From: Kalmusia sp. IMI 367209
Lineage: Eukaryota > Ascomycota > Dothideomycetes > Pleosporales > Didymosphaeriaceae
Length of the DNA stretch: 64,000 bases
Direction of reading: 5' to 3'
NCBI GenBank assembly: GCA_027946365.1
Contig: JAPEUQ010000004.1
Location: 2,852,001-2,916,000, forward strand
Shown here: positions 1,205-46,994 of the stretch, one piece after another
Layout of the letters: each line of letters starts with the position of its first letter
Numbering within the stretch: position 1 is the stretch's first letter
Program-made: the position numbers and the translations under genes
The notes under the pieces: model-generated
Told to the model about the DNA's origin: nothing
Database searches by the model: none
What the model saw: the letters and a program-made list of their open reading frames with translations, nothing else

Positions 1205-2877
1205 CTAGTAAACGTAGAATACGGTCGCCTCATCATCCGACTCCCTCAATGCCTTGTTCCTCTTGATCATTATGATTTTTGCCACCCAAGCCAGTGCCGC
1301 AGTCGCTACGGAGAAGCCAGCTGACGCACCTAATGCGATCGCGTAACGCGGCGAGTCGCTCTTAGGCCAAAGATACGGAGTCCTAGGTCCCAAAGTTATT
1401 TTCGGAACGGGAAGTGAGCAAAGTATGTATAATTGACTTACCAAATAAAGGATGCGTTCATCACTGTCGTCACAATACCGATAGCGACAGCCTTCTTCTC
1501 CTTGGTTTGCCCGCACGTGCTACCGCACCATCCAAGGATGAGGGAGTTGACACCATATGTGCCAATCGTAAAGATAACCATCGATGCATAGCGTCCGCCC
1601 ATGTCCATAGTTAAGCATGCAGCTATGAATCCAACCGTCGCTACAGCTTTCGAGATGGTGATGTGCCATGTACGTTCATTGAACTTGCCACTACTCCAAG
1701 ACACCGCAATCGTAACAGCACCTGCAATGAGGTAGGGCGGGCATGTAAGAACCAAGGTGACAGTCTCATTAAAGCCAAGCGTCTCGACAACCGTAGGGAA
1801 GAAATTCTTGAAACCGTTGGCTGCGAGATGCATGTGGGCCATGAGCGCAAAGATCCAGACCATAGGGTCTTTGGCAGCTTGCTTGAATCCTTTGAAGGTC
1901 GAAGTCTCGCCCTGGTTCCCAACAGTGTCAAGCTCCATGCGATTGGTTGCAAGGGCGCGCTCGTCCGGGGTAAGCCACTTGGTATCGTGAGGAAAGTCAG
2001 GCAGTATGAAGAACCCCACGATGGCAATAACAAAGGTGACAGCTCCTTGGAGAATAAAAAGCCAACGCCATCCAGACAGGCCACCAGCATCATCCATGCC
2101 GTGGAAGATGCCTGCCGCAATAAGGCCGGCGAAAGCAGTGGCAAGGATGTTGCCTGTGTATAGGATAGCGATGCGGGTTGCAACTTCTTTACGCGTGTAG
2201 AAGATTGAAAGTAGGTAAACAGCCCCAGGATAGTAAGGCGCTTCAGTCACTCCTAGGAAGAAGCGAGTCAAGAGAAGACCCGTGAAGTTCTTGGACACGG
2301 CGGTCAGAGCGCTGACAACTGCCCAGAGCATCATAGCGATAGCCATATATCGGCCTGGGTAGAATATTGTCAGTCTCGATATACCGTCAAATAGAAATAA
2401 AAAACATACTAGGGCGTGTTCTTGTCAAGAACATGTTCGATGGGATCTGTCCGAGTAGGTAACCAACAAAAAGAATTGACACACAGGTTTGATACTGTGT
2501 GCTATCAAGCCCAAGATCCTCCTCAAGGTCGTTGATTCTCGCGAGGGCAATCGCGTTGCGATCGAGGTAGTTAAGCCAATACATTGACCACAGCATAGGC
2601 TATAGCTATTAGTCCATAATCCCTACCAAGAAAAATGTTCATACCATGATCCATCGATCTAATTTCTTGACCAGTGCGATTTCACGAGGATCGGTTTTCT
2701 TTGCAAAAGCGTCAATGAGTTGCAAAATCGCGAGCTAGTGATATGTAAGAGACAAACCTCATGAGCACCCGAGTAATCCTGCTTCTCGACGATAGGTATA
2801 GGCTTCTCGAAATCGTTGGTCTGCTGTTGCTCTAACATGTAGACCTCAGTCTTCTCATTCGGTGAGGTTTTAGCCAT
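1205..2877 (-). CDS. MFS transporter, anion:cation symporter (Dal5/allantoate permease-like)
   Basis: Predicted plasma-membrane major facilitator of the ACS family, which moves small organic anions or vitamins (allantoate, nicotinate, pantothenate and similar) with protons; substrate unknown. Five exons, 2877..2758, 2698..2645, 2599..2410, 2354..1442 and 1382..1205, sum to 484 aa, the usual size. Family marks: cytosolic N-terminus ending KKLDRWIM, then MYWLNYLDRNAIALARI in TM1, LGQIPSNMFLTR in TM2-3, TRFFLGVTEAPYYPG in TM4-5, GWRWLFILQG in TM6, and the central loop with WLTPDERALATNRM. The start MAKTSPNEK was chosen because upstream in-frame codons would add a non-family extension. It lies between an O-methyltransferase and a short-chain dehydrogenase, which would suit export or import for a small pathway, but Dal5-like genes are also common singletons. 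Confidence 0.92.
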
Positions 2878-4397
2878 CTTGAACCCTTCGATCGCAGATG
2901 CGAATATTAAATAAGCAATCAAGCCAAACCACTGTCAAAGGCTGCTCTGGGCGCTCCAGATCAGGTCCAGAGAGGGTTCATTTATATACACTACCCCATA
3001 GTTGGACCCTATGCTCCAGGGTGGCCAACACGCATCATAAATGACCAAGCTTAATCGCGAAAACGCCCGTCTCGAAGACACCTTACCAGTGTGCGATTGG
3101 GTGCTCGGTGGTTCCGAGAATACCAAGAAGCCGTCCAAGAATTCATAAGGCCGTGGAACAGTAAGCCACTAGTTGCCTGAGGCCCTACCCGGTAGCTTAG
3201 AGCCTCCTAGGTTCGGAACGAAACGGTTTGTGGTGTAGATGCTGCGGCATTTGTTCCCAACCGTGGAGATATGTGTAGGAGCGTATCTACGAGTGGAGCA
3301 GTCTGGGGTCTGGGGTTGAGGCTCGTGACGTCTCCAGCGCAATGTCCTCGAGTAGCAGGTGGTCGAGCGCATGACCCCCCTTTCACCGGGGACACTCTTT
3401 TTTCGCTCTGCGTCTGCAATTGCGCATCCTCTATCATGCAAATCTCATCTTACGATGTTGTCGTGATATATCGGCCGACAAAACACGGCCGAGAAGATAT
3501 CGGATGAGGGCCTCAACCGCCAGAAAGCCACAGCCACCAAGCTCTTCACGCCTCCCCTCGATACGAAGCTTCCTTCCAGCCTTGCTCACCGCCCAAGTGC
3601 TTCCCCGCCCGATCGCGTCTTGGTCGTTCGCGCGGCGCGTCTTGAAGGCGGACGAGTTGGGGTTCGACTCAGAATTGGCAAGCCACAATCGCGGCGCCAA
3701 TATCTTGTGGGCGCGAAGTTGCCAGGTTCTAGGCGCATGGTGTTGAGTGGAGACGGGGCAAAACGGGGCGCGGGGAACGCTTGCGTTTTGACACGCGGGG
3801 AAAACCCCGTTAGCGTGGGATGATTCTCGACATTGCATGACGCTTGCGCGATCCAAGACGATCCGTTGTCTTCATCGCTACCAAGACAGCTCGAAATGTA
3901 GAATCGCCCGAGAAGTGGAGATCATACAGAGCACGTGCTGCAGCAGAGGTCGACATAGTCATAGAACGATCTTGTCTTGGTGTATATAGTGCGTGTGGAG
4001 GGTGGGTCTGCAACTGGTCTTGGTGATACGAAGCAACTTGGTTTTCGCTGGCCTGATATTTCCAGTACCTCACACAACAAGCAGAGTAATGGTGGCTATT
4101 CCAATGTCCCCACGGTCGGGCGATTGCTGTGGAATAGCTCAACTGCAATCGGTCCGACATGGTCAGGCCAAGACGCCGAAGATCCCTGTAGGGTGAGCGC
4201 ATGCCATGTTCAATACGATCATGAAGAACGACGTATGGTGTAAAGTCTACTTCTATATATCTAATCACCCTCGACCTGGTTGTGTTATTCAGCGTCTCTA
4301 CAATACATATCAAGCGCCTTAATATTACAACTTCAACCCTTAACATCATTTGTATACGGATACCATGAGGTAGGCCATTCCAACAACTCATTACATC
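2878..4397. other. 1.5-kb gap between MFS promoter and dehydrogenase 3' end
   Basis: No supported gene. The stretch 3480-3850 is noticeably GC-rich and open in several frames on both strands (for example a 140-codon ORF at 3434-3856, minus), which is what GC-rich non-coding DNA does by chance. None of the translations has recognisable family motifs. The remainder is the probable MFS promoter and the SDR 3' flank. Confidence 0.45.
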
Positions 4398-5543
4398 TCA
4401 AAATCTCTGCAAGACATCCTGTGTCCAGTTCCACAATCTTCCTGCCAAATCCTTATCGTTCGCAGTCTTATCCAGCTTACTCAACTTCTCGACACCAACA
4501 GGGTAGTAGAACCCTCCGTTCACAAGCTCTTTCTTCTTTGCCACCGTCGCACACCACACTTGGTTCCAAGCCCCCTGCTGCGGGGTTAAGTACTTGATGC
4601 CCTGCATCCAACATGTTATATGTATAAACCAGCGAACTTGCCAGGTTTGATTATACATCAGATCTGTTGCCACAACACCAGGATGAACCGACACAGATGT
4701 AATTTGAGGGTAGCGGCGTGCGAGTTCGGACGGGTAGAGAATATTTGCGAGCTTCGAGTGGCCGTAACGGATCCAGCCACCTAACATGAGACGGCTCATG
4801 GGGCTGCGGTTGTCGAGTTCTGCAAATGAGATACCGTTGCTGGGGTGGAAACCATAGCCCATTGATGTTGTGACTAGGATTCGTACGTCTGAGTTTGGCA
4901 GATCTGCGGTGCGGAGGAGTGTGGGAAGAAGACAGTCGATTACCATAGAGTTGCCGAGGTGGTTGACAGCGAAGTGGATCTCTGCGCAAAGATCAGCATT
5001 TGCCTGAACTTGAGGGATACGGTGAAATTCTAGATGAGAAGTGTGAATCGCATATAGTTGTAGCAGAATTGCTTACTATGCCTAAGTTAGCAGTCTTTCG
5101 AAGTACCTTTGAGTATGTGACTTTACCCGTAGCCGTCTCTGCTAAGAACAGGAGGCTGTGTCATTACTCCAGCCGTGCACATCAGAATATCCAGTCTATC
5201 GTGCTTGAATCCTGTTTTGATACCTTCCTTCACCGAAGCCAGGGATGTGAAGTCGACCTGAACGAATGTCATGCCGACTGATGGATGTTTGGACTCCACC
5301 TCAGCGATTAGAGCCTCCGCCGCTCGATGGTTGCGACCGGTAATGTATATATGCGAAGGTCCATGAGCGGCCAAAGTTCGAGCAGTCTCTGCGCCTATTC
5401 CAGCAGTACCTTCAGACATGTCAGCGCATCTCCCGTCAAAGAGAACACAACCTCCTACCGCCGGTGATGAAGAGCACTTTGCCTCCCAACGAAGGGACTT
5501 CTTTCTCGGGATCGAAATCGTTTCGCGCCTCGATGTTCTTCAT
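4398..5543 (-). CDS. Short-chain dehydrogenase/reductase (retinol-dehydrogenase/WWOX-like)
   Basis: Predicted NAD(P)-dependent oxidoreductase of the classical SDR fold; substrate unknown. Four exons, 5543..5459, 5409..5127, 5081..5077 and 4981..4398, give 318 aa, a normal length. The cofactor motif TGGTAGIGAET lies at residues 27-37 and is split by intron 1. DILMCTAGVM is the NNAG-like strand-4 segment. IHFAVNHLGN follows, and the catalytic pair Y197xxxK201 is in RYGHSKLAN, with a VHPGVVATD loop after it. The 5-nt third exon (5077-5081) is inferred: direct splicing of exon 2 (ending in phase 2 at GGGTAAAG) to the CAG acceptor before IHFAVNHLG breaks the frame, while the micro-exon has an AG acceptor, a GTAAGC donor and restores it. 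The start MKNIEARND precedes a normal SDR N-terminus. It is transcribed divergently from the bZIP gene. Confidence 0.88.
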
Positions 5544-6100
5544 CTTGGAGAGCTCTATCTAAATTTGGTGGAGAGAAATTGAGGTGGTAGCCAACGGAAT
5601 CTTGTTGTACCTTCTTGTATCTGCGCCTGCAGCTGGTCTCTATATACCTCCTGTAAGCCTGGTCACTGCCATCAGCGGACCAACCTCGCGGCCGAATACA
5701 TTTCTTTCCCCTACCCAACCCCCAATAGCATCGGAATTTACGATTCTAAAAATGCTCAAAATTGCACATTGACAAGGAGGACAACGCGTCCTAGTTTAAA
5801 TCCGATTCGCGAATAACGGCAGGCCTTTCCCTAAACGGGGTAAGTGCAAATGCTAGACCGAATGAAGCACTAGCGCGTAAGCAGTCCGCATATATGCATC
5901 GTTGCGTATCGGATCATTCAATTCTCCTCGTTCTTTTGAGGCTTAGTCGGATAAGCAGTCTGCATACAAAAGGACTTGGTCCCTTCCTAAACCCATGACT
6001 GTGGCCTCGAAGCGTAATTCCAGGACATTTTCTTAGAGCCGCTAATTCGTCCGCTGATTTGCTCCTTCGGACTGTTGGATTCGAATAAGCAATTCGCATA
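5544..6100. other. Divergent promoter region, SDR and bZIP genes
   Basis: About 560 bp separating two divergently transcribed genes. A TATATAG-like element on the minus strand near 5640-5648 lies about 100 bp upstream of the SDR start and could be its TATA box. No coding sequence seen. Confidence 0.4.
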
Positions 6101-7241
6101 ATGCAGGCGAGGACAGAAAACAATATCTCGGTAGCAACAAAACCTCAGCTCAAGGAGGTAGGTATCAACTGGTGCTCCGTTCATCTGAAGAAGATTCATT
6201 AAGAGAAGCATAGGCGAGGAATGCGGATGACGACTGGACGGGCATAGCCTCGGCCAAAGAGAGGAGAAAGTTGCAGAATAAATTGCATCAAAGAGCATGG
6301 AGTGAGACGAGCCACTTTCAAGGGACGAAGGCGTAGTTTTATCCAGGCTAACCATCCGTGCAGGACGGCGCAAAATTCAAGAGTCCATACGTGCAAATAC
6401 ACCATACTCAATTCCAACACCCCACGTTGAAGACGCACGTCTTGACGCCGCCTTCGCCGCAGCTTCTGCAATTATACCCCAACCTAAAAATTCAGGGCCC
6501 CAACATCTGCACCTCCTCCCTGCACGCCCCTCTACAACAACTCCCGTCACCTCTCTCGACCTCCATCCTTCCGTACCCACAAAGCCCTTCACCCTCCAAA
6601 CCCTCAAGGACCTCCATGTCCGCACACGCTCACCCCGTAAAGCTCAACTTATTCCCCCGGTAATATCCTACATCAACCCCTCCTCCTCAACACCCCATGT
6701 CTCCGCCTACCCTTCTTTCCACTTCCCTCTCGCTCCAGACCACTACCTGATAACCCTCATCCAATACAACGTGCTCCGAGCAGTAATGACAAACTTCCTC
6801 CTCGTCAACCTCGATCTGCCCCCTGAATGCCAGAACGCATTTCGGATCCCGCTCCTGCACCATCCGCCCTCCTCCCCTCCTCCGACCTTCGCGCCGACAT
6901 CCGTGCAGCGCAGCATCCGGCATGAAGCCTGGATAGACAGTGTGCCCTGCCCGCGGTTCCGCGACAATCTGATCCATGCGAGTACGGATGCGGGGGGGCG
7001 GTTTGACGACGAAGACCTTTGCGATGATGTATGTGGGGGACTGTACGAGGGCTTCGACGAGTGCGAGACGAGGGGTTTGCTTGTCTGGGGTGATCCATGG
7101 TTAGTGGAGAGCTGGGAGATTTCGCCTGGGTTTGCAGCAAAGTGGGGGATGCTTTTGAGGGGGTGTGGAGAGATGATGGTGTATACGAACCGCTGGCGGG
7201 AGGCGAGGGGCGAGGAGCCGATAGCATTAGAGATTGATTGA
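6101..7241 (+). CDS. bZIP transcription factor with C-terminal DUF3425 domain
   Basis: Predicted fungus-specific nuclear transcription factor. Three exons, 6101..6157, 6214..6301 and 6364..7241, give 340 aa with consistent phases. Exons 2 and 3 join to make the basic region: ERRKLQNKLHQRAW then RRRKIQES. This contains the bZIP signature N-x7-R (N of QNK to the first R after the W), with intron 2 (GTGAGA donor, GTGCAG acceptor) splitting it. The C-terminal half is DUF3425: DHYLITLIQYNVLRA, then TSVQRSIRHEAWID, then WGDPWLVESWEISPGF and KWGMLLRGC. There is no evident leucine zipper after the basic region, as is common in this subgroup. The ATG at 6101 is the first in-frame start that splices into the basic region; exon 1 is the least certain part. 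It sits next to the SDR, MFS and O-methyltransferase genes and could be their local regulator (inference). Confidence 0.82.
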
Positions 7242-7571
7242 CTGGATGTGATTTGAGGAGTCATTGTTCGGCAATCTTCGCGCTAGATCGAAGCAAGGAT
7301 ACAATTATGACGAATGCAGATATTGCATACCGGTAGATCTGATTCCTGTGCTAATAGTCTTCCTTCTGCCTTTCCGTGCTTTCGTGCCTCGTATTCGCAT
7401 GAAACCAGCACAGAACCAAACCTATATCTAAATTTACATAGAGAGTCCCGCAATGTTGATCTCCGATCACAAATCCTTACATTGCCCGGAACATACCCAC
7501 CAGAGAATACCTCCAATTAACCCGCAAAAGCCCAAGATACATGGAAGAAATCGTGTTGGTTCAAGGCCAAG
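7242..7571. other. Convergent 3' spacer, bZIP and DCP2
   Basis: About 330 bp between two gene ends. It should hold both 3' UTRs and poly(A) signals. No gene seen. Confidence 0.5.
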
Positions 7572-32079: not shown

Positions 32080-33699
32080 GGTACGTGGAAACGTGGGAAC
32101 CCGTGCACACCGGAGGAAAGCACGTAGACCATGCATAGCCTTGCTAGCGCTGGAACCGTTTGTTTTTCTGGAATCGGTCCTTTAGTGGTGAACAATATAT
32201 TAGTCTTCAAGCGAACTGTCAGTGCGTACATGGTTATGGTATAGGATCTACGTTATACGCTTTGCATTGCTGGACTAGCTAAGAAGTACTGCACAGACTG
32301 ACCACCATTATGGGTATAGCGTGATACACCACGCCAGCCTTTTCCAGGGCTTCAAAACCTGCTCTCGAAAATATGTACCTCAAAAGAGAGCTTATTCGAG
32401 GATAAATGGTAGCAAAATTTAAAATTAGCTAGAAAAGTGGCCTTATAGGCCAAGGTGCACAGATTGAAGCATCAAAACACACGAAGGTCACATGACCTGC
32501 AGCGAACGGTTGTGAAGACTTGTAGCCAATCGGCCTTAGGTAGCTCAGAGACGGCGGCCACCTGCAGCATCGACTGGAGAAATGTTGTGTCATTACTGAC
32601 TCTACACTGTTTGGATGCCTGTGACGATCGGGGACAGTTACCCCGTCTGTACGCATCCGACAATTTAATATTCGTACGATTTTCTGCTTTGACCATCTGC
32701 TGCCTCCACTACATGCGCTAACTGTATACGGCAGGATGTATCCAAGTCCCTGCCGAGTATTGCTAGCATTTGTTATCACCCCTACCCACTGAAGCCTCTT
32801 GCCTATTATTCTGGAGCCTTTATGCAATCCTCAACAGTTTTTCAACATTTCCAATCCTTTACTCAGCATTGCATAGAAGATGCCTTGTGTGTCCTGCTCT
32901 CTTGGTCGTGATGTACGTCAAGCAGTTAATCTATCTCGCAAGCACATTGCATAGTCCAGACATTATCAATTAATTGATTTCGCTGTTAGTATGTCGTAAT
33001 GCATACAGCACCGCTTCGTGCATCTGTTATGTGTTTGCACATTCTGATGCAAATAGTCCGAGCCACTATGTTTTGGTCCGTCGGCTAACTCTTGTCTCCA
33101 GGTCTTGGTGGCCTTAACCTCTGGGCAGCAACATCATTCCATATGACAAGTGCCAAAGAACTCGTCTACTTGCATTTCTGTGGGCAATTCGGCCCACCAA
33201 TGTTCTAGAAAAGAGTGGCTAAATGCATAGAAGCTTAGACGAGGACCGGCGTCTGCCATGGGTGAATAGATACGGATTGCCATGGCATGGAGTGGGCCCG
33301 GGGTAACGACAGAAAACGGCAGCTATACCGTATCCCCGGGAATATTAACCTCTAGTTCCACTACCTGCTTCATCTGAGCGGCAAAACAACTGCAAACGTG
33401 CCCAAGAAAGAAGAAACGTCCAGTGCAATATGCCCAGCCGTGTGTGTGTATTCCCACCCACACACCTGTGACAAGTGGGTGATCGTTGACTTGGCCGACC
33501 CTATCGGTAAAAGCACTGCATCGGCGAGAACACTACTAATCTGTCTTGCGTGGGGTGGTGGCAAAACGCTCCACGTGAACAAGCCTGGTGTGGGCTCATC
33601 AGTCATGTATATAAGGCTGTAAACTCTCTGAGAAAGGACGATACCAAATCTACGCATCGAGCCGGTCTCTAGTACAGCATTTTGGCTGCAACTTGCGAG
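32080..33699. other. 1.6-kb gap and TmpL-like gene promoter
   Basis: No supported gene. The first kilobase is AT-rich and stop-rich. The last 100 bp hold a probable TATA box (33608-33615). Confidence 0.45.
33608..33615 (+). promoter_or_regulatory. Probable TATA box of the TmpL-like gene
   Basis: TATATAAG lies 85-92 bp upstream of the ATG at 33700 in the right orientation. It is the only good TATA match in the proximal promoter. Confidence 0.45.
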
Positions 33700-36600
33700 A
33701 TGGAATCCCCCAATCTTTTCGAAGGACTTTCATGCCTTCAACGCGCGGATCAAATCCTCTTATCTCGTTTTGGACGTGGTCCGGTACTGAACGTTCCTCA
33801 TGAGACAGTCCCTGAGGCCTTTGAGAGCATGGCCGACTCTCATCCTCATCAGATTGCGGCGACTTTTAAAGACGAAAGTATTACATATCGTGAGTTAGAT
33901 CTTGCTGCAAATCGACTGGCAAACTACCTCATTACCTCTGGACTACAGCCACGACAACGGGTCTGTGTCGTAGTTCAAAGGTCAATCACGATGTTGGTAG
34001 GAATCCTTGCCATTCTGAAGGCCGGATGCCAATACGTTCCGGTGGATGGTGGAGTTTGTTCCGAAGAAGCGATGAGGCATATTTTCCAGGATACAGGAGC
34101 CCAGTTCATTCTGTGTCTCCCCAAACTGGAGGAAAAAGTTAGGCGTAATGCCTTGCACACGAACTTTATTGTTCCTTTGGGGGAGAAAGTCGAGGCGTCC
34201 TGCACTCAAGAAAGACCGCGAGTCTCTGTAACCTCAAAAGATGGGGCATACGCCATCTACACGTCTGGTAAGCTTTTCATCATCGATGAATGAATTACGC
34301 TGATGGGATCACAGGCACAACAGGCAAGCCCAAAGGAGTGGATGTTTCGCATGGCAACGTCACGAATGAACTGTTGCTAGATCCTGGCAAACTCGGTATT
34401 ACTCTCGGCTCCAAAGTTGCGCAAGTCCTAAACATTGCTTTTGACATGGGTATGTATCTCGATCCACGGGTCCCTTGTTAGCGGCTCACACTAGCGGGTA
34501 GGTGCCTGGGAGATTCTCGCTTGTCTCATGAACGGGGGTACTTTGTACCTTAGGGGCTCGGACTGGACGGAGACCCTTAAAAAGGTTGGCTTCCGTCTTT
34601 TCAATGTTTCGCGAAAGCTAATTTCGGCATAGGTTGATACACTCATCTCCACACCATCAATCTTGTCTAAGTACCGGCGCGATGATTTCCGAAATATCAA
34701 GACAATTGTAACTGGTGGCGAGCCATGTCCGCAAGCGTAAGTACCGAAAAAGTGACATTACACACAATAACTCACCAAATAGTCTGGCCGATGAATGGGC
34801 CCAATCCTCGACATACTACAACATCTGCGGCCCAACCGAAATTACCATTCTCAATACTGCGCATCGACACACCCCAGGACAGCCTCTTTCGATTGGGCGA
34901 CCCCTCCCAAACACCACTTTGTATGTGCTTGATGAAGATGAAAACCCGGTTGCGGTCGGTTCAAAAGGCACCATGTGGGTGGGTGGTGCAGGTGTTTCGC
35001 GAGGCTATATTAACCTGCCGGAATTGACGGCCAGAAGATACAAACTTGACAAGTTCGCCAACGATGGGTACGTCGATTCAAGTGAGAAAACAGCTTATTC
35101 TAATCGTTTCGTAGCTCTATGATGTTCAATACCGGGGACATTGTGCAATGGAGAGAAGATGGATCTCTGAATACGTTTGGAAGGGCTGATGATCAAGTCA
35201 AGCTCAAGGTAATTTAGTACACGCCTTCAGAAGTGACGTTGGTAGAGCTGACCTTTGAAAGGGCTTCCGCGTTGAACTTGATGGAGTGACCGCAGTCGTG
35301 GAGGTATGCAAGACCAACGATGGCTATTGCCCCCCAACGGAAGACTGATTTTTGTGTAGAAATACCAGGGTATCACACGCGCCTGTGCTACAGTGATCGA
35401 AGGGATATTGTATGCTTTTTATACGGCATCCACGTCCATTTCCGAGCATGATCTGGACGAATTTGTTAAACGACACCTTCCTTACTACTCTGTTCCGGAG
35501 CGCTGGGTCATTCTCGCCGCAATTCCCCTGACCTCAAACGGGAAAGTCAATAAGAAAGAACTGGCTTCGCTAGCTCTTCAACCCATTCTTTTTGTCCCGC
35601 AAATCCAGGAAACCAGCAATTCTACGAGTCTTGTATCAAGCGAAAGCGAAACAAGCTCTTCGGTAGATATCGAGAAAGATGGGGGCAGCCTTACTGATTT
35701 CTCTACGGAGAACTTGGATCTCTCAACGACGGTTGTCGAAAAGCCAGAGTCGCTTCCTTCCAAGAATGGCTTCCACGGACAAAGATGGCTTCGTCATCGC
35801 GCATTCATTGTGTATCGGAAATTCTTCAGCGTGATAGTCATGGCAAATTTTGCTGCCGCTGTGGTGATTCTGTACCTTCGGGTGCAGAAAGACAGACGCA
35901 TGCTCGCCGATCTTGCAACAGCTACGGCAACAAACCTTTGCGTGGCAGTACTTATGCGCTGCGAACCAGTCATCAACTCCCTCTTTACGCTGTTCTGTTC
36001 CGTTCCATTGTTCGTTCCACTGTCGATTCGAAAACACTGCGCACGCATTTTTCATATTGGCGGAATCCACAGTGGGTGCGCCCTTTCTGCCACTATGTGG
36101 TTCGGAATACTCGCCATCGGTGTGAGCCTCGACTATACCAAGGGTCCTGGTGAACGGTGTATCAGCCTCGCTTCCATCGTTCTTACCTACCTTGTTCTTC
36201 TACTTCTTGTGATCATGGCATCTTTGTCACATCCAAAGTTCCGGGCCAAGTACCACAACACTTGGGAAATGACACATCGGTTTGGTGGTTGGACTGCTCT
36301 CATTCTACTCTGGATCCAGGCTTTTTTCACAACGAAGGATCTAAATGTCGGCGTGGCACCAAGCAAAGCCTACCTGAACTCGCCTCCCATCTGGTTGCTC
36401 ACTGTTGCGACAATGGCAATCATCTTCCCCTGGCTTCACCTTCGCAAAGTTCCCGTTCGCTCTGAAGTGCTTTCAAGCCACGCGATCCGTCTTCATTTCG
36501 ATTACACCACCCCAGTAGTTGGTACTGCTGTGCGCCTCGCTGAGCGGCCGCTAATGGATTGGCACGGCTTTGCGACCATCACAAATGCAAACGGAAAAGG

Positions 36601-37063
36601 CTTCTCCCTCATTGTCAGCAACGCAGGCGATTTCACCAAGCGCACAATTGAGAGAGCCCCTTCCCATATCTGGGTTCGTGGCATCCCGGCATGTGGCGTA
36701 CTCCGCATCTGCACAGTCTTCAAGTCTGTTGTACTCGTCGCAACAGGCTCAGGCATTGGCCCTTGTCTTGCGGTCATTCTGGCGAAGAAGACACCTGCAC
36801 GCATCCTTTGGACGGCTCCCAACCCGGAACAGACCTTTGGAAAAGATATCATCAACGCAGTGTTAGACAAGGATCCAAAAGCCGTCATCCACAATACGCG
36901 GACTATGGGGAAGCCTAATATGAGCCTTATGGCATATCAGCTCTGGAAAGAAAGTGGGGCCGAGGCCGTTTGCGTGATCAGCAATAAGACCTTTACCACG
37001 AAGATCGTGTATGCCTTGGAAGCAAGGGGAATCCCAGCATATGGGGCAATTTTCGATTCGTAA
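33700..37063 (+). CDS. TmpL-like fusion: adenylation domain plus ferric-reductase-like membrane and FAD/NAD(P) region
   Basis: A 1004-aa protein from eight exons (33700..34267, 34315..34449, 34502..34584, 34633..34736, 34783..35067, 35115..35208, 35262..35303, 35360..37063). Residues 1 to about 510 form an NRPS-type adenylation domain: core ITYRELDLAANRLA, TSGTTGKPKGV (A3, made across intron 1), YNICGPTEITI (A5), GEPCPQ, NTGDIVQWREDG (A7), GRADDQVKLKGFRVEL (A8) and NGKVNKKEL (A10). No condensation domain and no LGxDS carrier motif follow. A Ser/Thr-rich linker (510-580) leads to about six membrane helices (585-760) with HIGGIHSG and HRFGGWTALILLW histidines. A diverged flavin region (PLMDWHGFATI) and an NAD(P) motif VVLVATGSGIGP follow. 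This architecture matches TmpL, a redox-homeostasis and virulence factor described in Alternaria brassicicola and Aspergillus fumigatus (from memory). It could be the orthologue or a paralogue. Confidence 0.87.
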
Positions 37064-38407: not shown

Positions 38408-40471
38408 ATGACGCACTGGGTGATTTTAGTGGGCGTGCTCTATCACGGTCAACACCGTCCTGCCGACAATAATCTCAAAGGCTGCGTAGCGGATGTTGAA
38501 GACATCGAGGAATTCCTTGGCCTCCAGATCCCGGTTCCTACTATCTTCAAATTGACATCAAGCCTTCCTCTTGATGGCTCTCATGAGCCTCCAGAACCAG
38601 GCGATGAACGGGCAACGGCTCGCAACTTCCTATCGCGTTTAGATCACGTCATTGAATATGGGAAAGAGGGGGACAATGTGTACATTCATTATTCTGGACA
38701 TGGCAGTAGAAGTACAGATGATGTGAGGTTGAATTTCTTCACTGCATCTAAAGGGGCCGCTCAGTTGCCTGGGTCGCGCTTAGCGGGAAAGCTGAAAGAA
38801 ATGGTGACGCAGAAGATGCTCGTTACAGTCGTCTTCGATTGCTGTTTTTCTGCAGCTACTAAACGACATAACAAAACGTCTTTGATTCGATACAGCGAGT
38901 ATAGCTCATCGTTAGATGATAGCGAAGCCTCTCATTCCCTACTTGATGAGGGTGGCAATTTGGGAACGAAGTTCTCTCTGTATCGTAATGCTCAAGCACT
39001 TCCAGAGTGGATAGTGGACCCTAAAGGATATACCATCTTCTGTGCTTGCACATCGTCTCAAGAAGCGAAGGAAATAACGAAAATTGAGGAAAAAGTGGAA
39101 CTCGATGCGAACGAGTCCCCACGAGAGATTTTACTATACGACCAACCACCGGCATCGAGGAGACCTCTTGAACGCGGTGCACTATCCTACCTGTTGCTTG
39201 AAGCACTCAAGCAACTAAAGAAAGCTGGAACGGCCATATATGATCAATCACTGCACGAGCACCTGCGTGCTCGCTTTCATGCGCGAATACCGGCTCAAAC
39301 CCCAGTTCTATACGGCAGCAAAGACACGTCTTTTTTCGCTAGCTACATCTCATTTCCGGATACCAAGATTGCATCTGTATTTCTAGACAACGAACGATGG
39401 ATCTTACGTAAAGGCGCTGCTCATGGTGTCCGCCCTGGAGATCAATTTGTCCTTTTCGCGCTGAAAGACAGCGCTGTAGTCGCTGAGAAGGAACAACGTC
39501 AGAGGCAAAAGCGATATACTGAAAGTGGAATGGATTCTCAAAAAGGAGAGGAAAGCAACGAATACGATATCATATTCATGGTGAAGAAAGTACGAGGTCT
39601 CACATCAGAGTTGCAAGCAACTGCGGAAAGGACATCCGTAAGCGATGTCTATCAAGGATGGATGGCACGCCCACTTACGCAACTGCCTCCACAAGTATTC
39701 ACAGCACAGCTCCATACATCGGACCGATCTGATGATGAATGGCTAAGGGTTTCAGCTGAGCTTCATTATATGCAACTATCCATCGGAGATCCTAATGTGA
39801 TAGATTGTCTCTACAACATCACCTTGGACGCAAATGGGCATTACGAAATCTGTGACTCGTTACTTCAACCAATACGAGCCATTCCGTCTGTCCCATCAAG
39901 TCAGATAGATGCGAAACTCCGCGTTGTAGACATCCTAGAGCACATTGCAACATACAAGTACATCGAAGACATTACAAATCGAATGCCTGAACCATCCTTG
40001 GCAAACTCCTTCCACGCACAATTTCGACACGGAAATGAGGGTGACACTATAAAAAGTGCCATTATTCAAGTGAAAGAAGGCGAACATTTCTTCTTCGAGT
40101 TTGAGAACCGAAGCAACGATATGCTATATCTCTACCTTTACGCGCTGGGCCCAGATTGGTCGATCGAGGACCAAATGACGGTATTCAAAGGAGGAGAGAT
40201 GGTAGAGGCAAAGCCCCATGATCCAGTGACTATCGAATTCGAGGCCGCGCTGCCGGACTATTTTCATGATCTCACGATCGAAAACGGAGACGAAGTCTTC
40301 AAAGTATTCGTCACGCGGAGACCAGACTCATTCGCCTCTCTTAAGATGCGTCCACTTTCGAGCTCTCCAAAACGAGGCGCTCTCAATCGCTTGCAAGACT
40401 TTTTAGCCAGTAGGAAGCAAAAAACGCCGGGGGAAGCACGACGAAGAGCCGGAAGAAGAATGGTACACTAA
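38408..40471 (+). CDS. Caspase-like peptidase (C14) with C-terminal extension
   Basis: Predicted cysteine protease of the caspase/metacaspase clan, a single exon of 687 aa. The domain begins at the start codon (MTHWVILVGVLYHG, then LKGCVADVEDIEEFL), so there is no prodomain. The catalytic histidine is H98 in YIHYSGHGS and the cysteine is C146 in VVFDCCFSA (metacaspases usually have DSCHSG). TIFCACTSSQEAKE and RGALSYLLLEAL are later elements of the p20/p10 fold, ending near residue 310 (PVLYGSKDTSFF). A roughly 370-residue C-terminal part follows: a VRPGDQFVLFAL barrel segment, charged linkers, then EFENRSNDMLYLYLYALGPD, which resembles DUF4384-like sensor domains attached to bacterial caspases. 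The tail is very basic (SRKQKTPGEARRRAGRRMVH). It is convergent with the 90-aa gene and 2.1 kb from a TPR-CHAT protease gene end. Confidence 0.9.
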   Translation: MTHWVILVGVLYHGQHRPADNNLKGCVADVEDIEEFLGLQIPVPTIFKLTSSLPLDGSHEPPEPGDERATARNFLSRLDHVIEYGKEGDNVYIHYSGHGSRSTDDVRLNFFTASKGAAQLPGSRLAGKLKEMVTQKMLVTVVFDCCFSAATKRHNKTSLIRYSEYSSSLDDSEASHSLLDEGGNLGTKFSLYRNAQALPEWIVDPKGYTIFCACTSSQEAKEITKIEEKVELDANESPREILLYDQPPASRRPLERGALSYLLLEALKQLKKAGTAIYDQSLHEHLRARFHARIPAQTPVLYGSKDTSFFASYISFPDTKIASVFLDNERWILRKGAAHGVRPGDQFVLFALKDSAVVAEKEQRQRQKRYTESGMDSQKGEESNEYDIIFMVKKVRGLTSELQATAERTSVSDVYQGWMARPLTQLPPQVFTAQLHTSDRSDDEWLRVSAELHYMQLSIGDPNVIDCLYNITLDANGHYEICDSLLQPIRAIPSVPSSQIDAKLRVVDILEHIATYKYIEDITNRMPEPSLANSFHAQFRHGNEGDTIKSAIIQVKEGEHFFFEFENRSNDMLYLYLYALGPDWSIEDQMTVFKGGEMVEAKPHDPVTIEFEAALPDYFHDLTIENGDEVFKVFVTRRPDSFASLKMRPLSSSPKRGALNRLQDFLASRKQKTPGEARRRAGRRMVH

Positions 40472-40545
40472 GAACTTGATTGTGACAACAATAGCTGTAC
40501 CCAAATGATCTTGGAAAGTACGTATTTGATCAATATCTATTCGTA

Positions 40546-40930
40546 TCATCCTGGGACTTTTTCAAGATCTATCTCCCTGACCCCCTGCAACACTACCCTA
40601 TCGTCCGCTTCCAAATTGATGGTGTACGTGCCCGTCGCATCATCATAGCTGTCGACTAAGTATGGCCCTCGAGAAATCCCTGGACGGGCATTGATAAACC
40701 TCACTCTATCCTCAGGCCATAAGTTCGGCTCCTGAAAAATTTCAAAAGTTGGTGTTCTAGAAGGTGGAATTGGGGGGAGTATGTTGTCTTACGACTTTTG
40801 ATTGGTTGACGCCTGGGCGCCCGCTTCCTTCGGCAACGCGGAAATCAGAATTCTTGTTGCTAATTTGTCTGCTTAGCAAGCTTCCTTGTTGATTTTTATG
40901 GCGTGATTACTTTTGATTTGCGCTCATCAT
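40546..40930 (-). CDS. Small hypothetical protein with predicted SH3/KOW-like barrel, 90 aa
   Basis: This gene is not visible as a long ORF. Three exons, 40930..40911 (20 nt), 40859..40793 (67 nt) and 40731..40546 (186 nt), give 90 aa with matching phases (2 and 0). Splice sites are GTAATC/TTAG with a TGCTAAG branch, and GTAAGA/TTTTTCAG. The start is MMSANQN. The N-terminal 28 residues are polar (VAEGSGRPGVNQSKV). The rest alternates short beta-like segments and turns: WPEDRVRFI, GPYLVDSYDDATGTYTI, DDRVVLQGVREIDLEKV. This pattern fits a five-strand SH3/KOW-type barrel (inference from the pattern only). Exon 3 is free of stops with protein-like composition, unlike the surrounding DNA. It ends 74 bp from the caspase stop (convergent) and its start faces the DUF6594 gene (divergent, 536 bp). 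Confidence 0.6.
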
Positions 40931-41466
40931 CTAGGGGGACATCCGCACGTTCTTTACTTGTCCTATATGTGTTGAAATCATGCAACGCAGTAATTAAGAA
41001 GTTTCGTGGGGTATATTGGGACTAGAGAAGCAACGATCTCGAATGCTGAATGCGGTTACATATACGTATAGCTTTTAGGTACAGTTCGGCTATATAGTCT
41101 AGCTGCTAGGCTGACAGGACAGTCGTATGACGTATATATCACTTGCTACCTTGTCAAAGCACTCAACCTCTGCAAGGCTCAACAATTGCGCCTTTTCTCC
41201 CATTGGTTACCGTTACACAAAAACCAATATATGTTGCATATGATAGTCGCCTGGTTCATGATATTTGATGCAGATTGTACCGTGTAGCTCAATAATTGGC
41301 TTCTTTCCAAGCCATCAGCAGCTCTCAGCCTAGTTGCCTCATTCAGGCAAAGCCACCTGATAATGTGCTCTCGGGCTTAGCTCGAAGCAGTCTATATCCC
41401 GTTTGCACCCATAATATAGAAATTATACACCTTTAGGTTATTATTTGATCGGCTAGCTCTCTCATT
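40931..41466. other. Divergent promoter between the 90-aa and DUF6594 genes
   Basis: About 540 bp, AT-rich, at the centre of the four-gene island. No coding sequence. It is short enough for the two flanking genes to be co-regulated. Confidence 0.45.
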
Positions 41467-42573
41467 ATGCCGCTGTCACAGACCCTGAAGCAGTGTTTCT
41501 CACTCAAGAAACCTCGTAAACCGAAAATGAAGTCGCGACACAGACATGTGAAACAGAGTACGTGATTTGTTCCAAGAATATCCATAGATTTGACATACTG
41601 AAACTACAATCGTACAAGTTGAGGATTTTCGGCCGGGATATCCTCGGTTTTCCGCGCTTCTTGCAGCGCATAACTCTTTCCACATTTTCCGCAGCTTTCG
41701 TCAATTGCGGACCCGTCTCCTTCTCGTCAAACAAGACAGGCTCTCCGATCTCGAAGAGCAACTAGGAAAACTAGATGATAATGAAATTCGGGGCTTATAT
41801 CTTTCAAGTTCTCGACGCGACAGAAACACGAAAAGAAAAGATTTGATTACTAATATCGACAGAGCCTTGATAGAATATGGTATTGTCGTCGGAGTATAAG
41901 TAGATACGATGAAAGCTCACATATTCTAGACGAGCTAATCGAGAGAAACCATCGCATACTCGCTCTAGATCCAGCCTTGCCCCGGGATGTCTCCAGTGTT
42001 CGGAATTGGTTGAATGGAAACGCATGTATGTCCCGAAACGAAGTGAAATACCTCGATCACTGGAACGAGCTATTGAGTGTGGTTGATTCTCAAGACACGA
42101 CTCTTTCGATGTTTGAAGCGTGGCTGGAGCGTATCCTGCTTCGCATTTGGAAAGGTTTACGGCGGGTACGTAGACTTGATGTACGGCTATGCTCTCTACT
42201 AAAACAGCTAAAATTCATGGCAGCGTTCTTTATTCGACGTCTCGCGTGATCCGGCTGTTCATATTCCTTCGAACTCGGCCTTTCGAAAGGTAGCGAAAGG
42301 GAGCGTAGCCTTAGTCATCATCTTGCTGCTGCTGCTGCCTATATTCATTTGCAACGTGGTGCAACAAGCAAGAGTTCGCATGAGTGTTGTTGCTGTTGCT
42401 GCGATTTTGTTTGTCGCGATGCTCTGCTTGCTCACGCGCGCTAGACCAATTGAGATGTTTGTAGCTGGTGCTACGTAAGTTTAAAGCATAATCTAAACGA
42501 ACAAGACTAACTTGAAAAATATAGGTATACCACTGTGTTGGTAGTATTCGTTTCGGGAGTGAAGGCAGACTAG
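41467..42573 (+). CDS. DUF6594 membrane protein
   Basis: Fungal DUF6594 family protein; function unknown. Five exons, 41467..41557, 41619..41879, 41930..42165, 42224..42474 and 42525..42573, give 295 aa with every phase consistent. The N-terminus is basic (KKPRKPKMKSRHRHVK). The DUF6594 core starts with RPGYPRFSALLAAHNSFHIF then RSFRQLRTRLLLVKQDRLSD and LEEQLGKLDDNE, the family signature (GYPxLAxxIAxDxxFxIFRRF...R.LL..QDEL..LE..L..LD). DELIERNHRILALDPA and RDVSSVRNWLNGNACMSRNE follow. The C-terminus has three hydrophobic helices: VALVIILLLLLPIFICNVV, MSVVAVAAILFVAMLCLL and EMFVAGATYTTVLVVFVSG. The last helix ends five residues from the stop. It is convergent with the TPR-CHAT gene with 45 bp between stop codons. 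Confidence 0.88.
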
Positions 42574-42618
42574 GTGAATCAAACATTTCGAGTAGCCCAA
42601 GAAGTCACAGGTCCTATA

Positions 42619-45210
42619 TTAGGGTCCGACGTGCATAAATGCTCCCCAATGTAGTATTTTTCGAGAGTCTCCCAACTCTCCTCTGTACTCATAAATGGCA
42701 TGGTGCAAAGCATGAGAGACTCCTCCTGTGCCACCATCCTGAAGAAGTTTTGCATAAAACTTGCCCGCCACTTTGACTGCTGCATCATCAAACGTATCCC
42801 AAAGAGTGCCAATGACGTGCCTAAATGCGAGTTGAAAGGCACCTGCTAAGTGGATGCTTTCGTTAATCAAAGCTTGGTCTGAGGAAGTCGCCGTCGAACA
42901 AGCAGACAGGTATGCAATCTGTGCTGACTGGAGGTTGATAGATCGTATGTCATCGACTGACAGTCTTTCTTGTTGCAGTCCAGATCCTAATATAAGATTA
43001 CTTTGGAAAGAGCTTGTTTTACCCAACTCCGCATGACATGCTAGATGGAGGATCGAGCAACCTTGAATCATCTGAAGAGCTTCCGTTTTCCCTGGTGTGA
43101 GTAAGACCTTGATATCAGCTGCCTCTCCGACATGTTGTTTGATAGATCCAATCTCGTTCTTAGTGTTTAGTGGTCCAAGTCCTAGTCCGGGAGTCGTAGG
43201 CATTGCCACAACAACAACTTTTGGCTTTTCGTTTCTTTCGCTTGCTTTGAGCGATGTCCAAGCTTTTTTCCTAGAAAACTGTAACGCCTTTAAAGAAGGC
43301 ATATAAGAAGAGATGACATGACTGAGAGTATTTTCGGTTGAGTTGGCATCGTGAACGCCAGCTGCGTGTATGGGAACAAGACCCAACAGGCCTCCACCAA
43401 CCCACCAAATCGAAGGCAGCTCTGGTGGAGGCTGGTGCTGCCAGAAAAGCCCCAGATCTTGCAATATAGGCTTTACAGCCTCTTTCCAGAGCCAGGCCAT
43501 CTTTGCCTCAATGTTGGATGTTTCAGTTGTTGAGGGTGCTAATTGAGTTATTCCATTTTGTGTGAAGCTTATAGGCTTTGCGCGCGAAGATCCATAGTCA
43601 GAAACAATGGCCTTGATGCATTGATCCACGGTCTTGGGGGTAAGGTCTTTACCAAGCTCTATGGCACGTATTCGAGTGTTGGTGATGATGAACGCATGGC
43701 TACATAAGTAAGTAACATTGAAACACACTATTGGACCTTTACTAGCAAGGTCTAAGAGTTGTTCCTCGCTTGGTATTCTTTCGATTCCTTGGAACTCGGG
43801 AAGTCTTCGCATCTCCATCTGAAGGGATTCGAAAGCATCACACGCGCTTCGCAGTTTAAGAGACTCCGCCGCATATTCTTGTAGAGGTTTCCCATCATTC
43901 GAAGCATTTTCTTCGTCTCTATCGGCCCGTATAGAGCTAATTGATTCCTGGAGCTCTGTATATCTGGAAAGTATTGTTGAGTGATTGCTCCTTGGCAAAG
44001 GCTCGTGCGTCTTAATCTCCATAGCCAAGCCATCTATGAGACTGGTGCCTTTCTCGAGTATCTGTAGAGCTTCTAGGTCACTTTTGCCTGCCTTGATGAA
44101 CACGGATGCTGCAATGGCTCCCAATCCTGAGAACTGTCGAAGTATGCGCTCAAGATCTTCGTCAGAGTGCGTGCGGGGAGTGAGTCTCAAGAGTAATTCT
44201 AACAGATCTTCTAGAATAACAACCGCCTTAGACCACTTCTCAAGTTCAATAGAAGCATCCATAGCTTGTCGCCCAGCTCGCATACGATGAAATGTCGGAC
44301 TTTTGTTGTGAGTCAAAGCTTCTTCGTGCAATTTAGCTGCTTCTTCAAGGTCACTCGTGTTTGATTTTCTTGACCAGAGATATGCATCCTGGTAGCTCAG
44401 AGCTAGATTATAGAGACGTTCTGCTCGAGAATGATGACTAAGCGGCGTGTTATCGAGTGCGGATCTGGCCAATGTGAGACAACGTCGAGCAATGTAGGAG
44501 AGTCCTGGCTCGGCCCCCGCTTCAAGTTTGATAGCTTGCCCAAGATCGCCCAAAACACTTGCCAGCTTGTTTTCAAGCATCGCTAGGACATTGCGGCGAT
44601 CTGAAGTTTGCGGTACATTGCTCAAAGCTTCTTCAAAATAGGATATTGAAGAGTGAAGATTCGAAATCCCAGCAGAGTCCTTCCATTTCACCGTCTCATG
44701 ATAACGATCACGATGTAGGATTCCCAAGTCGTCGAGAACGTCACAACGGAAGTCTTCGTCTTCATCTAACGCTTCAATTGCATCAGTGAAGTGATCTCGC
44801 GCAGCAATAAAGTCAGCATCGAAGTTCCCATGGCCCTTGATAGCTTCCTGGTAACGCCAGCCATAAGCCCTGCCTGTTCCCGCCATACGCCTAGATCGTA
44901 CGGATGCGCTTGTGTCCGGTGGCATAATTTCCAAGCTGTGCTGCTTATATTGAATCGCTGCATCGATGTCCTTCATTGATCCAGATCCGGTATCAAGATA
45001 TCTGAGTTGAAGGCCATGCCCGAGACCATACCATCTTGTAGCCTGTATGGCAGCGCTCCTGTTTCCACATTGATCTACAGCCTCTTTTCCTAACCTAATA
45101 CTCTCTTCCAACGCTTCCCTATTGTTTGACTTGTCATTTCGATATTGTTTACGTAAAGCTGTAGAACGATTATATGGTGAAATCGTAACTTTACCCTTTC
45201 CTGGTGCCAT
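42619..45210 (-). CDS. TPR-CHAT protease-like protein
   Basis: Predicted caspase-clan (CHAT, separase-related) peptidase with an N-terminal TPR array; single exon, 863 aa. The N-terminal roughly 450 residues form helical repeats, for example ATRWYGLGHGLQLRYLDTGS, DAAIQYKQHSLEI, LNLALSYQDAYLWSRKS-like helices and DLEEAAKLHEEALTHN. The C-terminal CHAT domain (about 500-863) has VCFNVTYLCSHAFIITNTRI, IWWVGGGLLGLVPIHAAGVH, and the catalytic dyad H726 (ILHLACHAELG) and C771 (IAYLSACSTAT). VIGTLWDTFDDAA and ILHWGAFMHVGP close the fold as in other fungal CHAT proteins. Both catalytic residues are intact. In fungi CHAT-TPR proteins are numerous and often found near, or fused to, NLR-type genes; bacterial TPR-CHAT proteases activate cell-death or signalling effectors (family knowledge). 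A TATATAAA element near 45328 could be promoter sequence. Confidence 0.92.
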   Translation of the reverse strand: MAPGKGKVTISPYNRSTALRKQYRNDKSNNREALEESIRLGKEAVDQCGNRSAAIQATRWYGLGHGLQLRYLDTGSGSMKDIDAAIQYKQHSLEIMPPDTSASVRSRRMAGTGRAYGWRYQEAIKGHGNFDADFIAARDHFTDAIEALDEDEDFRCDVLDDLGILHRDRYHETVKWKDSAGISNLHSSISYFEEALSNVPQTSDRRNVLAMLENKLASVLGDLGQAIKLEAGAEPGLSYIARRCLTLARSALDNTPLSHHSRAERLYNLALSYQDAYLWSRKSNTSDLEEAAKLHEEALTHNKSPTFHRMRAGRQAMDASIELEKWSKAVVILEDLLELLLRLTPRTHSDEDLERILRQFSGLGAIAASVFIKAGKSDLEALQILEKGTSLIDGLAMEIKTHEPLPRSNHSTILSRYTELQESISSIRADRDEENASNDGKPLQEYAAESLKLRSACDAFESLQMEMRRLPEFQGIERIPSEEQLLDLASKGPIVCFNVTYLCSHAFIITNTRIRAIELGKDLTPKTVDQCIKAIVSDYGSSRAKPISFTQNGITQLAPSTTETSNIEAKMAWLWKEAVKPILQDLGLFWQHQPPPELPSIWWVGGGLLGLVPIHAAGVHDANSTENTLSHVISSYMPSLKALQFSRKKAWTSLKASERNEKPKVVVVAMPTTPGLGLGPLNTKNEIGSIKQHVGEAADIKVLLTPGKTEALQMIQGCSILHLACHAELGKTSSFQSNLILGSGLQQERLSVDDIRSINLQSAQIAYLSACSTATSSDQALINESIHLAGAFQLAFRHVIGTLWDTFDDAAVKVAGKFYAKLLQDGGTGGVSHALHHAIYEYRGELGDSRKILHWGAFMHVGP

Positions 45211-45715
45211 GGGCGCTAATCTGTTTTTCTTGATCAGTAGAACAATCTAAATTCGACTTTAAGATAATCCCAACCTGCTACCAGTCGCTCAAGAGCTATT
45301 CATTGAAAGCTGTCGACCGCTCGAGTGTATATAAAGGCGAGGAGGCACACGTGTGGCCTGCCTATAGCAGCCTAATTACCCGCTATTCTAATTGGGGGTT
45401 AGTGCCGTCAGCCATGCAACATAACTGGTGATTAATCAGCCAACTCTCGGTCGAAGCCAAAGTAAGATGCCTCCAAGATTCAGCATATGAGGATATGTAA
45501 TGACTTGCCACCATAATCATGATAATTTGTGAATCAGCAAGTCACCAGCTTTCGGTATCACATGGTCGTAATTGACATAGGACGATAGCTCGTACAATTA
45601 GCCATACTACACATATCTATTTCTTGTATGTAGATGAAGGTAATGATATCGAGATATTAACTCTTGTGATTGAAATCTACTCTTTGCTATTCCAATGCGC
45701 TAGATGGTATCGTCC
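45211..45715. other. Intergenic, TPR-CHAT promoter and Nudix 3' flank
   Basis: About 500 bp. A TATATAAA run at 45328-45335 lies about 120 bp upstream of the TPR-CHAT ATG. No gene seen. Confidence 0.42.
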
Positions 45716-46994
45716 TTATAATTTCCCTGATCTCTTACGGCCCAAGATCTCGTCTCTCTCCCAAACATTCACATCCCTCGGGCCCTCCTTTTTGAATTTC
45801 GTCGTGATGACCCATCTCTTCATACTACCTCTGATTCCTTCCCGCGAGAGCTCGGGCCCCGGGCTATCTAGCACTAATACCGCGGTGTCCTTGTCCACTT
45901 TACCAACACCGTCTTGTTTCGACTCGCCGTAGTCACCCTTCCCAAGGACTACGGGGCTGACAACTGCCTCCCCAAACGTATCTACGGCCTCGCTATTATG
46001 AACTCCCTTCTTACTAAGGAACCCAACGAGGCGAGACCTTTCATGCTGTAGTTCTTCGATAGAAGGAATTGGAGAACTGGGGCTGGTGACGGTCGGGGAT
46101 AGGTACTCCGACAGGATATATGTGAGGAAGAATTGGGGTGGATAGAGGATGATTCGGTTCTGCCGCGCGAGATCAATCCACTTGTTAGGTGGTAGGAACC
46201 GCGCTGCTGTATGCTCGATGCCGCCGTCGTGAGTGGGGTTCGGTATCACGATCTCGTCTTCCTCGCCTAGGCCGGAGGATGGCGGCGTGCCAATCGAGGT
46301 CGCAGCGCGCTTTGTTGGCGAGACAGATCCTAGCGGCAGGAAATAGAGGTACATTTGCGTCGTGAAGCGCTTTGGTACGTTGCGCGGTGTGATCCATCTC
46401 GTGAAAAGCAGGAGGGAGTCTGTATCTGCCTCGCAGCCCCATTTCTCTAGCAGGTCTGGAAATAATATAGTCCCTGCGTGTACGGCTTTGCGGCCCTCTT
46501 CTCGCTCCTCGTCACTTATTTCGGTGAATAGTTTGCCGGTTCTGAGGTTTTTCGCGAGTAGTATTCCACTTTCTTCAAAGGTCTCTCTTATGGCTGCCAT
46601 TCGATACGCAAGCGTATCTTGATGACTTTGTGGGTGGACCGCGTCGGGTACTTCGCCGTCATGCTCGGGCGATACTGCGCCGCCGGGGAAGACATGTGCT
46701 GGGATCTCATCAGTATTTCAGCTCCGCTTCCTCGGCTCGTGCTTCGTATAGGATTCGCATACCGGACGAGAACGCGGAAGCCGTGCGTACGCGATGCAGA
46801 AGGAGGATTTGGTTTGTCGGCGAGATAACAAGGACACTACATGCACTTTAGAATATATCTTCCGCTAATAAACACGATACTCTACCATTTTAGAGATGTA
46901 TTGCAAGGATAGGCACGTACGAGGAGCTGGGTATCGGTGTCGCAGGTGTCTTTGGCGCCTTCTTCACCGGAGTGTGGTCCGCTGGATTTGACAT
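45716..46994 (-). CDS. Nudix hydrolase, NUDT19/RP2-type
   Basis: Predicted Nudix pyrophosphatase of the NUDT19 group, whose characterised members cleave CoA and acyl-CoA (family knowledge). Three exons, 46994..46921, 46836..46763 and 46698..45716, give 376 aa. The start MSNPADHTPVKK comes from exon 1. The fold begins VLVISPTNQILLLHRVR, followed by HVFPGGAVSPEHDGEVPDA and, after a family-typical insertion, MAAIRETFEESGILLA. This gives the split Nudix box (GG...E...RETFEESG) seen in NUDT19. LLLFTRWITPRNVPKRFTTQ and MYLYFLPLG are further family segments. The C-terminus RKRSGKL ends in GKL, which falls off the usual PTS1 consensus, so peroxisomal location is doubtful. The third exon alone looks like a complete ORF; the first two exons are required for the Nudix fold. 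Confidence 0.9.

Follow-up and report, generated by a model that had tools for sequence, protein, structure and literature searches.

A four-gene island with a proposed CHAT-DUF6594 core

We propose, tentatively and at somewhat less than an even chance, that a CHAT protease gene and a DUF6594 gene lying tail to tail in the genome of Kalmusia sp. IMI 367209 form the co-inherited core of a four-gene island and may act together in the manner of the fungal CHAT protease-gasdermin pairs, with a caspase-like protease (C14) encoded in the same island as an optional component. Graded separately, the CHAT-DUF6594 pair is probably a unit, and C14 is a possible member of it.

The host, a member of the Pleosporales (Didymosphaeriaceae), has a genome of 42.8 Mb in 30 contigs, and the window that we analyzed is a stretch of 64,000 nucleotides from one of these (JAPEUQ010000004.1, positions 2,852,001 to 2,916,000); all positions below are those of the window. 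A reading of the open reading frames and splice sites gave four genes in the orientations +,-,+,-. The first is an intronless ORF on the plus strand (38408-40471) that encodes the 687-aa C14 protease. It converges, across a gap of 74 bp (40472-40545), on a small minus-strand gene of three GT-AG exons (40911-40930, 40793-40868 and 40546-40731), the product of which is 93 aa long, or 92 if counted from the second ATG. A divergent intergenic region of 536 bp (40931-41466), presumably a two-way promoter, separates the small gene from the DUF6594 gene, which encodes 295 aa on the plus strand in five GT-AG exons (41467-41557, 41619-41879, 41930-42165, 42224-42474 and 42525-42573). The DUF6594 gene in turn converges, across 45 bp (42574-42618), on the CHAT gene, an intronless minus-strand ORF (42619-45210) that encodes an 863-aa protease with a long N-terminal region. 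The models of the small gene and the DUF6594 gene are predictions, with introns read from splice sites alone.

The original prediction, made from the sequence of the window, had placed four genes in this alternating order with spacings of 74, 536 and 45 bp; all four genes were found in those orientations and the spacings agree exactly with the coordinates, while the length of 90 aa claimed for the small protein gives way to 93 (or 92) in the splice-site reading. The alternating orientation rules out an operon, and the four gene models, with open frames and introns that have GT-AG ends, rule out a mere artefact.

On the right-hand side, the public gene model N0V90_005003 (P0069; 1,133 aa; 42619-46717) joins the CHAT gene to a neighboring ORF (45716-46717) that has no Pfam match and carries what we take to be a Nudix-box-like motif. 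Because the CHAT gene is an intronless ORF of 863 codons, and because its 864-aa metagenomic relative P0070 matches it over 99% of its length, we argue that this fusion is probably an annotation error. On the left-hand side are an AMP-binding (NRPS-like) ORF (33673-34293) and, at 35360-37063, a second ORF that is long, looks hydrophobic and has no match in Pfam; the two are possibly parts of one adenylate-forming multidomain gene.

The CHAT, DUF6594 and small proteins

The CHAT protein matches PF12770 with 109.5 bits (cut-off 24) over positions 4-288 of the 289 in the profile, which places the domain at residues 571-862. Residues H726 and C771, which we take to be catalytic, are invariant in two alignments of relatives (A2, with 12 rows, and A6, with 5 rows). 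The claim that both proteases of the island have intact His/Cys dyads thus holds, since in C14 the corresponding C146 is invariant among relatives and H98 nearly so. One of the relatives in A2, the Plenodomus lingam protein P0073 (LEMA_P093170.1), stops early in comparison with the others, at a point past the catalytic residues, and its early end may reflect either an annotation error or decay.

The original prediction also gave the CHAT protein tetratricopeptide repeats (TPRs), and here the result is divided. In the window protein itself Pfam detects no TPR, even at an E value of 0.1, and the entries of the four relatives closest to it (P0070-P0073) list none either. Among more distant relatives the repeats are present: TPR_10 is matched by 8 of the 12 members of A2, mostly relatives outside the clade of the window protein, and the A2 family profile matches TPR structures and the solved structures of Csx29/TPR-CHAT, with a signal that comes largely from those same outer relatives. 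A TPR-like N-terminal region is therefore a fair guess for the window protein rather than a demonstrated feature.

The DUF6594 protein, in a hand-spliced version of 298 aa, matches the entire PF20237 profile (187.7 bits, cut-off 30, positions 1-238 of 238); the family itself has no described function. Hydropathy analysis of this version gives three hydrophobic segments at the C terminus, and the same number appears in both Plenodomus relatives, with two in the Lentithecium relative at the threshold used. In a structural model of the P. tracheiphilus relative (P0106; mean pLDDT 80.2, pTM 0.59), three C-terminal helices come after a long helical hairpin; both this model and the hydropathy agree with the three membrane helices originally claimed for the end of the window protein. 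Fold comparison returned no significant match, pore formers included, a result that in this comparison excludes nothing. DUF6594 is named in no paper that we found in the literature searched, which did not extend to preprints and most subscription journals.

The 93-aa protein, for which a barrel-like fold was originally suggested, has no match in Pfam or NCBIfam, and its matches in the PDB are at E values of 0.13 or worse. A six-frame search found no second copy of its gene in the Kalmusia genome.

CHAT and DUF6594 occur together in related fungi

Outside Kalmusia, the best relatives of the CHAT protein are the metagenomic P0070 (50% identity) and proteins of Lentithecium fluviatile (48%), Plenodomus tracheiphilus (47%) and P. 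lingam (45%), and the next relative by score, from Talaromyces, falls to 34%. For the DUF6594 protein the best relatives are 69% (P. tracheiphilus), 65% (P. lingam) and 58% (Lentithecium) identical to it; a Zopfia protein at 49% follows by score, and two fragments, which cover 58% and 30% of the query, have identities of 50% and 53%. The closest named relatives of both proteins are thus in the same three species.

In two of these species the relatives of both proteins are listed on scaffolds of identical size, which is 505,431 for P. tracheiphilus and 1,715,727 for Lentithecium. These are the two exact scaffold-size matches among 1,296 (36 x 36) CHAT-DUF6594 pairs, self matches excluded, where 0.0074 would be expected by chance. 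Scaffold identity is read here from equal values for the longest scaffold rather than from sequence, and the distance between the two genes could be as much as 1.7 Mb. We conclude that CHAT and DUF6594 very probably lie on one scaffold in P. tracheiphilus and in Lentithecium. The P. lingam proteins are listed from scaffolds of different size (1,560,629 and 2,754,474), and this species is uninformative on linkage.

Phylogenetic trees of the two proteins agree with this distribution. In the DUF6594 tree (32 proteins) the window protein, the two Plenodomus proteins and that of Lentithecium form one clade with support of 100/100, within which the window protein joins Plenodomus at 93/83. The CHAT tree (14 proteins) contains a clade of the same species together with P0070, again at 100/100, in which the window protein joins Plenodomus at 94/96, and a CHAT paralogue from contig C1 of the Kalmusia genome falls outside that clade. 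Support for the joins between the window and Plenodomus is moderate, and the two topologies agree. These trees support co-inheritance of the two genes rather than their joint function, because two linked genes that are simply passed on vertically would produce the same pattern.

Conserved linkage had been set beforehand as the test of the island, and it was found in part. In its favor are the equal scaffolds for CHAT and DUF6594 in two of the three other named species, the agreeing trees, and an association of C14 with CHAT in a metagenome and in bacteria (described below). Against it, among the relatives searched no second genome turned up with all four genes, and no C14 relative from Lentithecium or either Plenodomus appeared in a protein search that reached about 22% identity (the 7,997 candidates sharing most words with the query were scored, at 0.55-1.75 times its length).

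Copy number and surroundings in the Kalmusia genome

A six-frame search of the Kalmusia genome found at least 4 CHAT, at least 3 C14 and at least 20 DUF6594 loci. Random placement in this genome would give 0.011 pairs of CHAT and DUF6594 loci at a distance of 3 kb or less and 0.003 pairs of C14 and CHAT loci at 5 kb or less, figures that are post hoc since the locus was chosen for looking odd. Neither CHAT nor C14 is matched within 10 kb of any of the other 19 DUF6594 loci, and a stretch of 9.9 kb around each of the three other CHAT loci contains no match to DUF6594 or C14.

These counts bear on the explanation that the four genes are neutral neighbors, that is, unrelated accessory genes in a gene-poor stretch, with CHAT and DUF6594 sharing a chromosome by ancestry and lost together by chance. 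DUF6594 is a common family, and its loci elsewhere in the genome do without a CHAT neighbor; scaffold identity is no proof that the two genes are close in the other species; the alternating orientation speaks for no operon; and the full set is confined to Kalmusia among the genomes found. Set against these points are the occurrence of the same four named species in the CHAT and DUF6594 clades, the two exact scaffold-size matches where about 0.007 were expected, and a bacterial C14-CHAT association that exceeds the expectation at mean CHAT density. We regard neutral neighbors as unlikely, though as a serious competitor to the co-inherited unit that we prefer.

The surroundings of the island are mildly AT-rich, as originally claimed, with a GC content of 42-48% at 37-46 kb of the window compared with about 50% elsewhere. 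The left spacer of the island has no second copy in the Kalmusia genome and the surroundings have no RIP signature, and both observations count against a recent repeat-borne insertion.

C14 and its association with CHAT

The C14 protein matches PF00656 with 31.8 bits (cut-off 21.4), and the caspase/metacaspase domain occupies approximately residues 1-313. A family profile built from 43 sequences, the window protein included, matches metacaspase structures, and metacaspases are also the best fold matches of its AlphaFold model (mean pLDDT 76.2). By profile, predicted fold and His-Cys dyad, C14 is assigned to the caspases/metacaspases, with proteolytic activity as a prediction. It shares with metacaspases and bacterial orthocaspases the caspase fold, the dyad and a relatedness over nearly the full length: alignments with many relatives from fungi and some from cyanobacteria span 92-99% of the query. 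It differs from them in a long C-terminal half (from about residue 315), which belongs to no Pfam family yet is conserved. When the Kalmusia genome is searched with C14, only C14 itself is returned, and it is distinct from the two other C14 loci. Viral contigs were considered as a source of C14 relatives and set aside, as their 17 matches are weak, partial and limited to the caspase domain.

The best C14 relative, P0002 (45% identity), and the best CHAT relative, P0070, have the same contig size of 8,294 bp and the same sources. Exact contig-size matches numbered two among 67 x 36 C14-CHAT pairs, self matches excluded, where 0.074 would be expected by chance; the agreement of P0002 and P0070, which rank first in both searches, is unlikely to have arisen by chance. 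A further C14 relative of 28% identity (P0024) also shows the value 8,294, from fewer sources, either because two C14 genes share that contig or by coincidence.

Bacterial and archaeal relatives provide a second view. We took the best 80 of at least 524 confirmed stretches, mostly from cyanobacteria, and ran a CHAT profile over their flanks, to a maximum of 6 kb on either side. A CHAT ORF lay near the C14 relative in 12 of these 80 loci, and Pfam confirmed CHAT in all 8 of the ORFs from these loci that were re-checked. The expected number is 3.05 with scored matches (P 8e-5) or 3.53 with first-look candidates (P 3e-4), and it rises to 5.5-7.2 (P 0.01-0.06) if all loci are given the highest CHAT density seen. 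These densities come from 30 genomes, chosen to cover all 12 positive loci and 18 others, with several counts being lower bounds, and the Poisson model ignores the clustering of defense genes and kinship. Two of the positives (L109 and L126) are from genomes with a single CHAT match. The C14 relative and CHAT are on the same strand in 8 of the 12, excluding the weaker second CHAT of L130 and the fused ORF of L105. In L105, from a Pyrinomonadaceae MAG, one ORF of 1,764 codons (1-5292, minus strand) contains C14, many TPRs and CHAT. Because of these 12 loci, the L105 fusion among them, we suggest that members of this C14 family are associated with TPR-CHAT proteins outside fungi too.

Taken with its distribution among fungi, C14 appears to be a looser partner of CHAT than DUF6594 is. 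One alternative would divide the island into two separate pieces: CHAT and DUF6594 would form one unit, and a second, made up of C14 alone or of C14 and the small gene, would merely have landed alongside. The protein search returned no C14 relative from Lentithecium or the two Plenodomus species, which do have CHAT and DUF6594, the 536-bp gap parts C14 and the small gene from the other two, and a C14 protein 64% identical to P0002 (P0003) is on a contig of 13,101 bp without a CHAT match. Yet the best non-self relatives of C14 and CHAT have the 8,294 size and source set in common, and bacteria have the two genes as neighbors and, in one case, fused. We consider two unconnected pieces a doubtful explanation, and we retain C14 as an optional member of a unit centered on CHAT and DUF6594.

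Relation to described systems and a proposed mechanism

Two papers on fungal cell death (PMC10197012, PMC12881547) describe two-gene clusters of a CHAT protease and a gasdermin, place fungal CHAT proteases upstream of a membrane executioner, and give regulated cell death in fungi a limited set of executioners, such as HeLo-type proteins, gasdermins and lipases. The original prediction of a cell-death module finds support there for its general idea. The Kalmusia island resembles the published clusters in having a CHAT gene clustered with the gene of a putative membrane-acting partner; it differs in what that partner is, a DUF6594 protein for which membrane helices are predicted at the C terminus, and in the presence of a second protease, C14. 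In the heterokaryon incompatibility of Aspergillus fumigatus (PMC11138114), a CHAT gene is one hetB idiomorph, which sets a gene of this family in fungal self/non-self death; the hetB CHAT protein is larger, with 1,327 residues, and the alternate allele encodes a protein of 149 residues.

A more distant likeness is to Csx29, the TPR-CHAT protease of type III-E CRISPR systems (Craspase). The window CHAT protein matches NF041237 with 31.9 bits over residues 599-810, and its family profile matches the corresponding PDB entries. The likeness has its limits: NCBIfam sets the cut-off at 300, far above this score, Pfam finds no TPRs in the window protein, and the protein is eukaryotic.

We found no description of a CHAT-DUF6594 pair in the literature searched (preprints and most subscription journals were outside its scope), and a text search of that literature with three locus names from P. 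lingam and P. tracheiphilus returned nothing related. The best reading of the pair, by analogy, is as a variant of the published fungal CHAT-gasdermin pairs in which DUF6594 would replace gasdermin. We read it as a candidate protease-controlled membrane effector pair because the layout of the CHAT gene is like that of the published units and DUF6594 is its nearest neighbor.

In the mechanism that we envisage, the N-terminal, possibly TPR-like, region of the CHAT protein would sense a trigger or be engaged by it, after which the CHAT protease would become active and cut the membrane-inserted DUF6594 partner encoded next door. The cut DUF6594 protein, holding the position that gasdermin has in the known pairs, would then damage the membrane or signal there, leading to localized cell death in allorecognition or defense. 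C14, a second protease that the unit could do without, would plausibly form a short cascade with CHAT, something that the bacterial neighborhood suggests. Sensing, cleavage, membrane action and death are steps that we infer by analogy with the published systems. A stronger version, in which the island would encode a gasdermin-free proteolytic death circuit running from caspase to CHAT, with the three-helix DUF6594 membrane protein as executioner, we hold to be improbable.

CHAT, travelling together with DUF6594, provides a family of at least 20 loci in this genome with a specific partner that can be put to the test. If the proposed reading is true, CHAT proteases in fungi control more than gasdermins, and the pairing of C14 with CHAT would be a theme common to bacteria and fungi. 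If, further, DUF6594 is an executioner, the island would represent an effector swap in the CHAT-gasdermin layout, and a large orphan family of membrane proteins in fungi would gain a function.

Other CHAT loci in the Kalmusia genome

Two of the other CHAT loci have neighbors of their own. Near position 1,850,000 of contig C1 (locus L141), a CHAT gene (4580-7549, minus strand) lies tail to tail, at a distance of 91 bp, with an ORF of 288 codons (3622-4488, plus strand). This ORF has no Pfam match over cut-off and no PADLOC/NCBIfam match, its PDB matches are at an E value of 0.88 or worse, and its size is approximately that which we assume for fungal gasdermins. The pair may be a classic CHAT-gasdermin pair, with the gasdermin identity of the ORF a guess; if it is such a pair, the DUF6594 pair of the window would look like an effector swap.

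L141 also bears on where the target of the window CHAT protease might be. It could lie elsewhere, in a fungal gasdermin or C14 itself, for instance, and DUF6594 would then be a bystander with an ordinary membrane role. The published partners of fungal CHAT proteases are gasdermins, and at L141 a CHAT gene of this same genome stands tail to tail with an ORF of no identifiable family. On the other side, a PF04598 search of the Kalmusia genome found no gasdermin, though this model may miss fungal gasdermins; between the island and its neighbors there is no further ORF of at least 150 codons, though a split gene could hide there; and a target elsewhere leaves the co-occurrence of CHAT and DUF6594 unexplained. 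We think this explanation very improbable and keep to DUF6594 as the candidate substrate.

At the second of these loci, near position 279,000 of contig C7 (L142), a third CHAT ORF adjoins, on the same strand, an NPHP3_N ORF and weak TPR matches, an arrangement that suggests an NLR-type CHAT protein.
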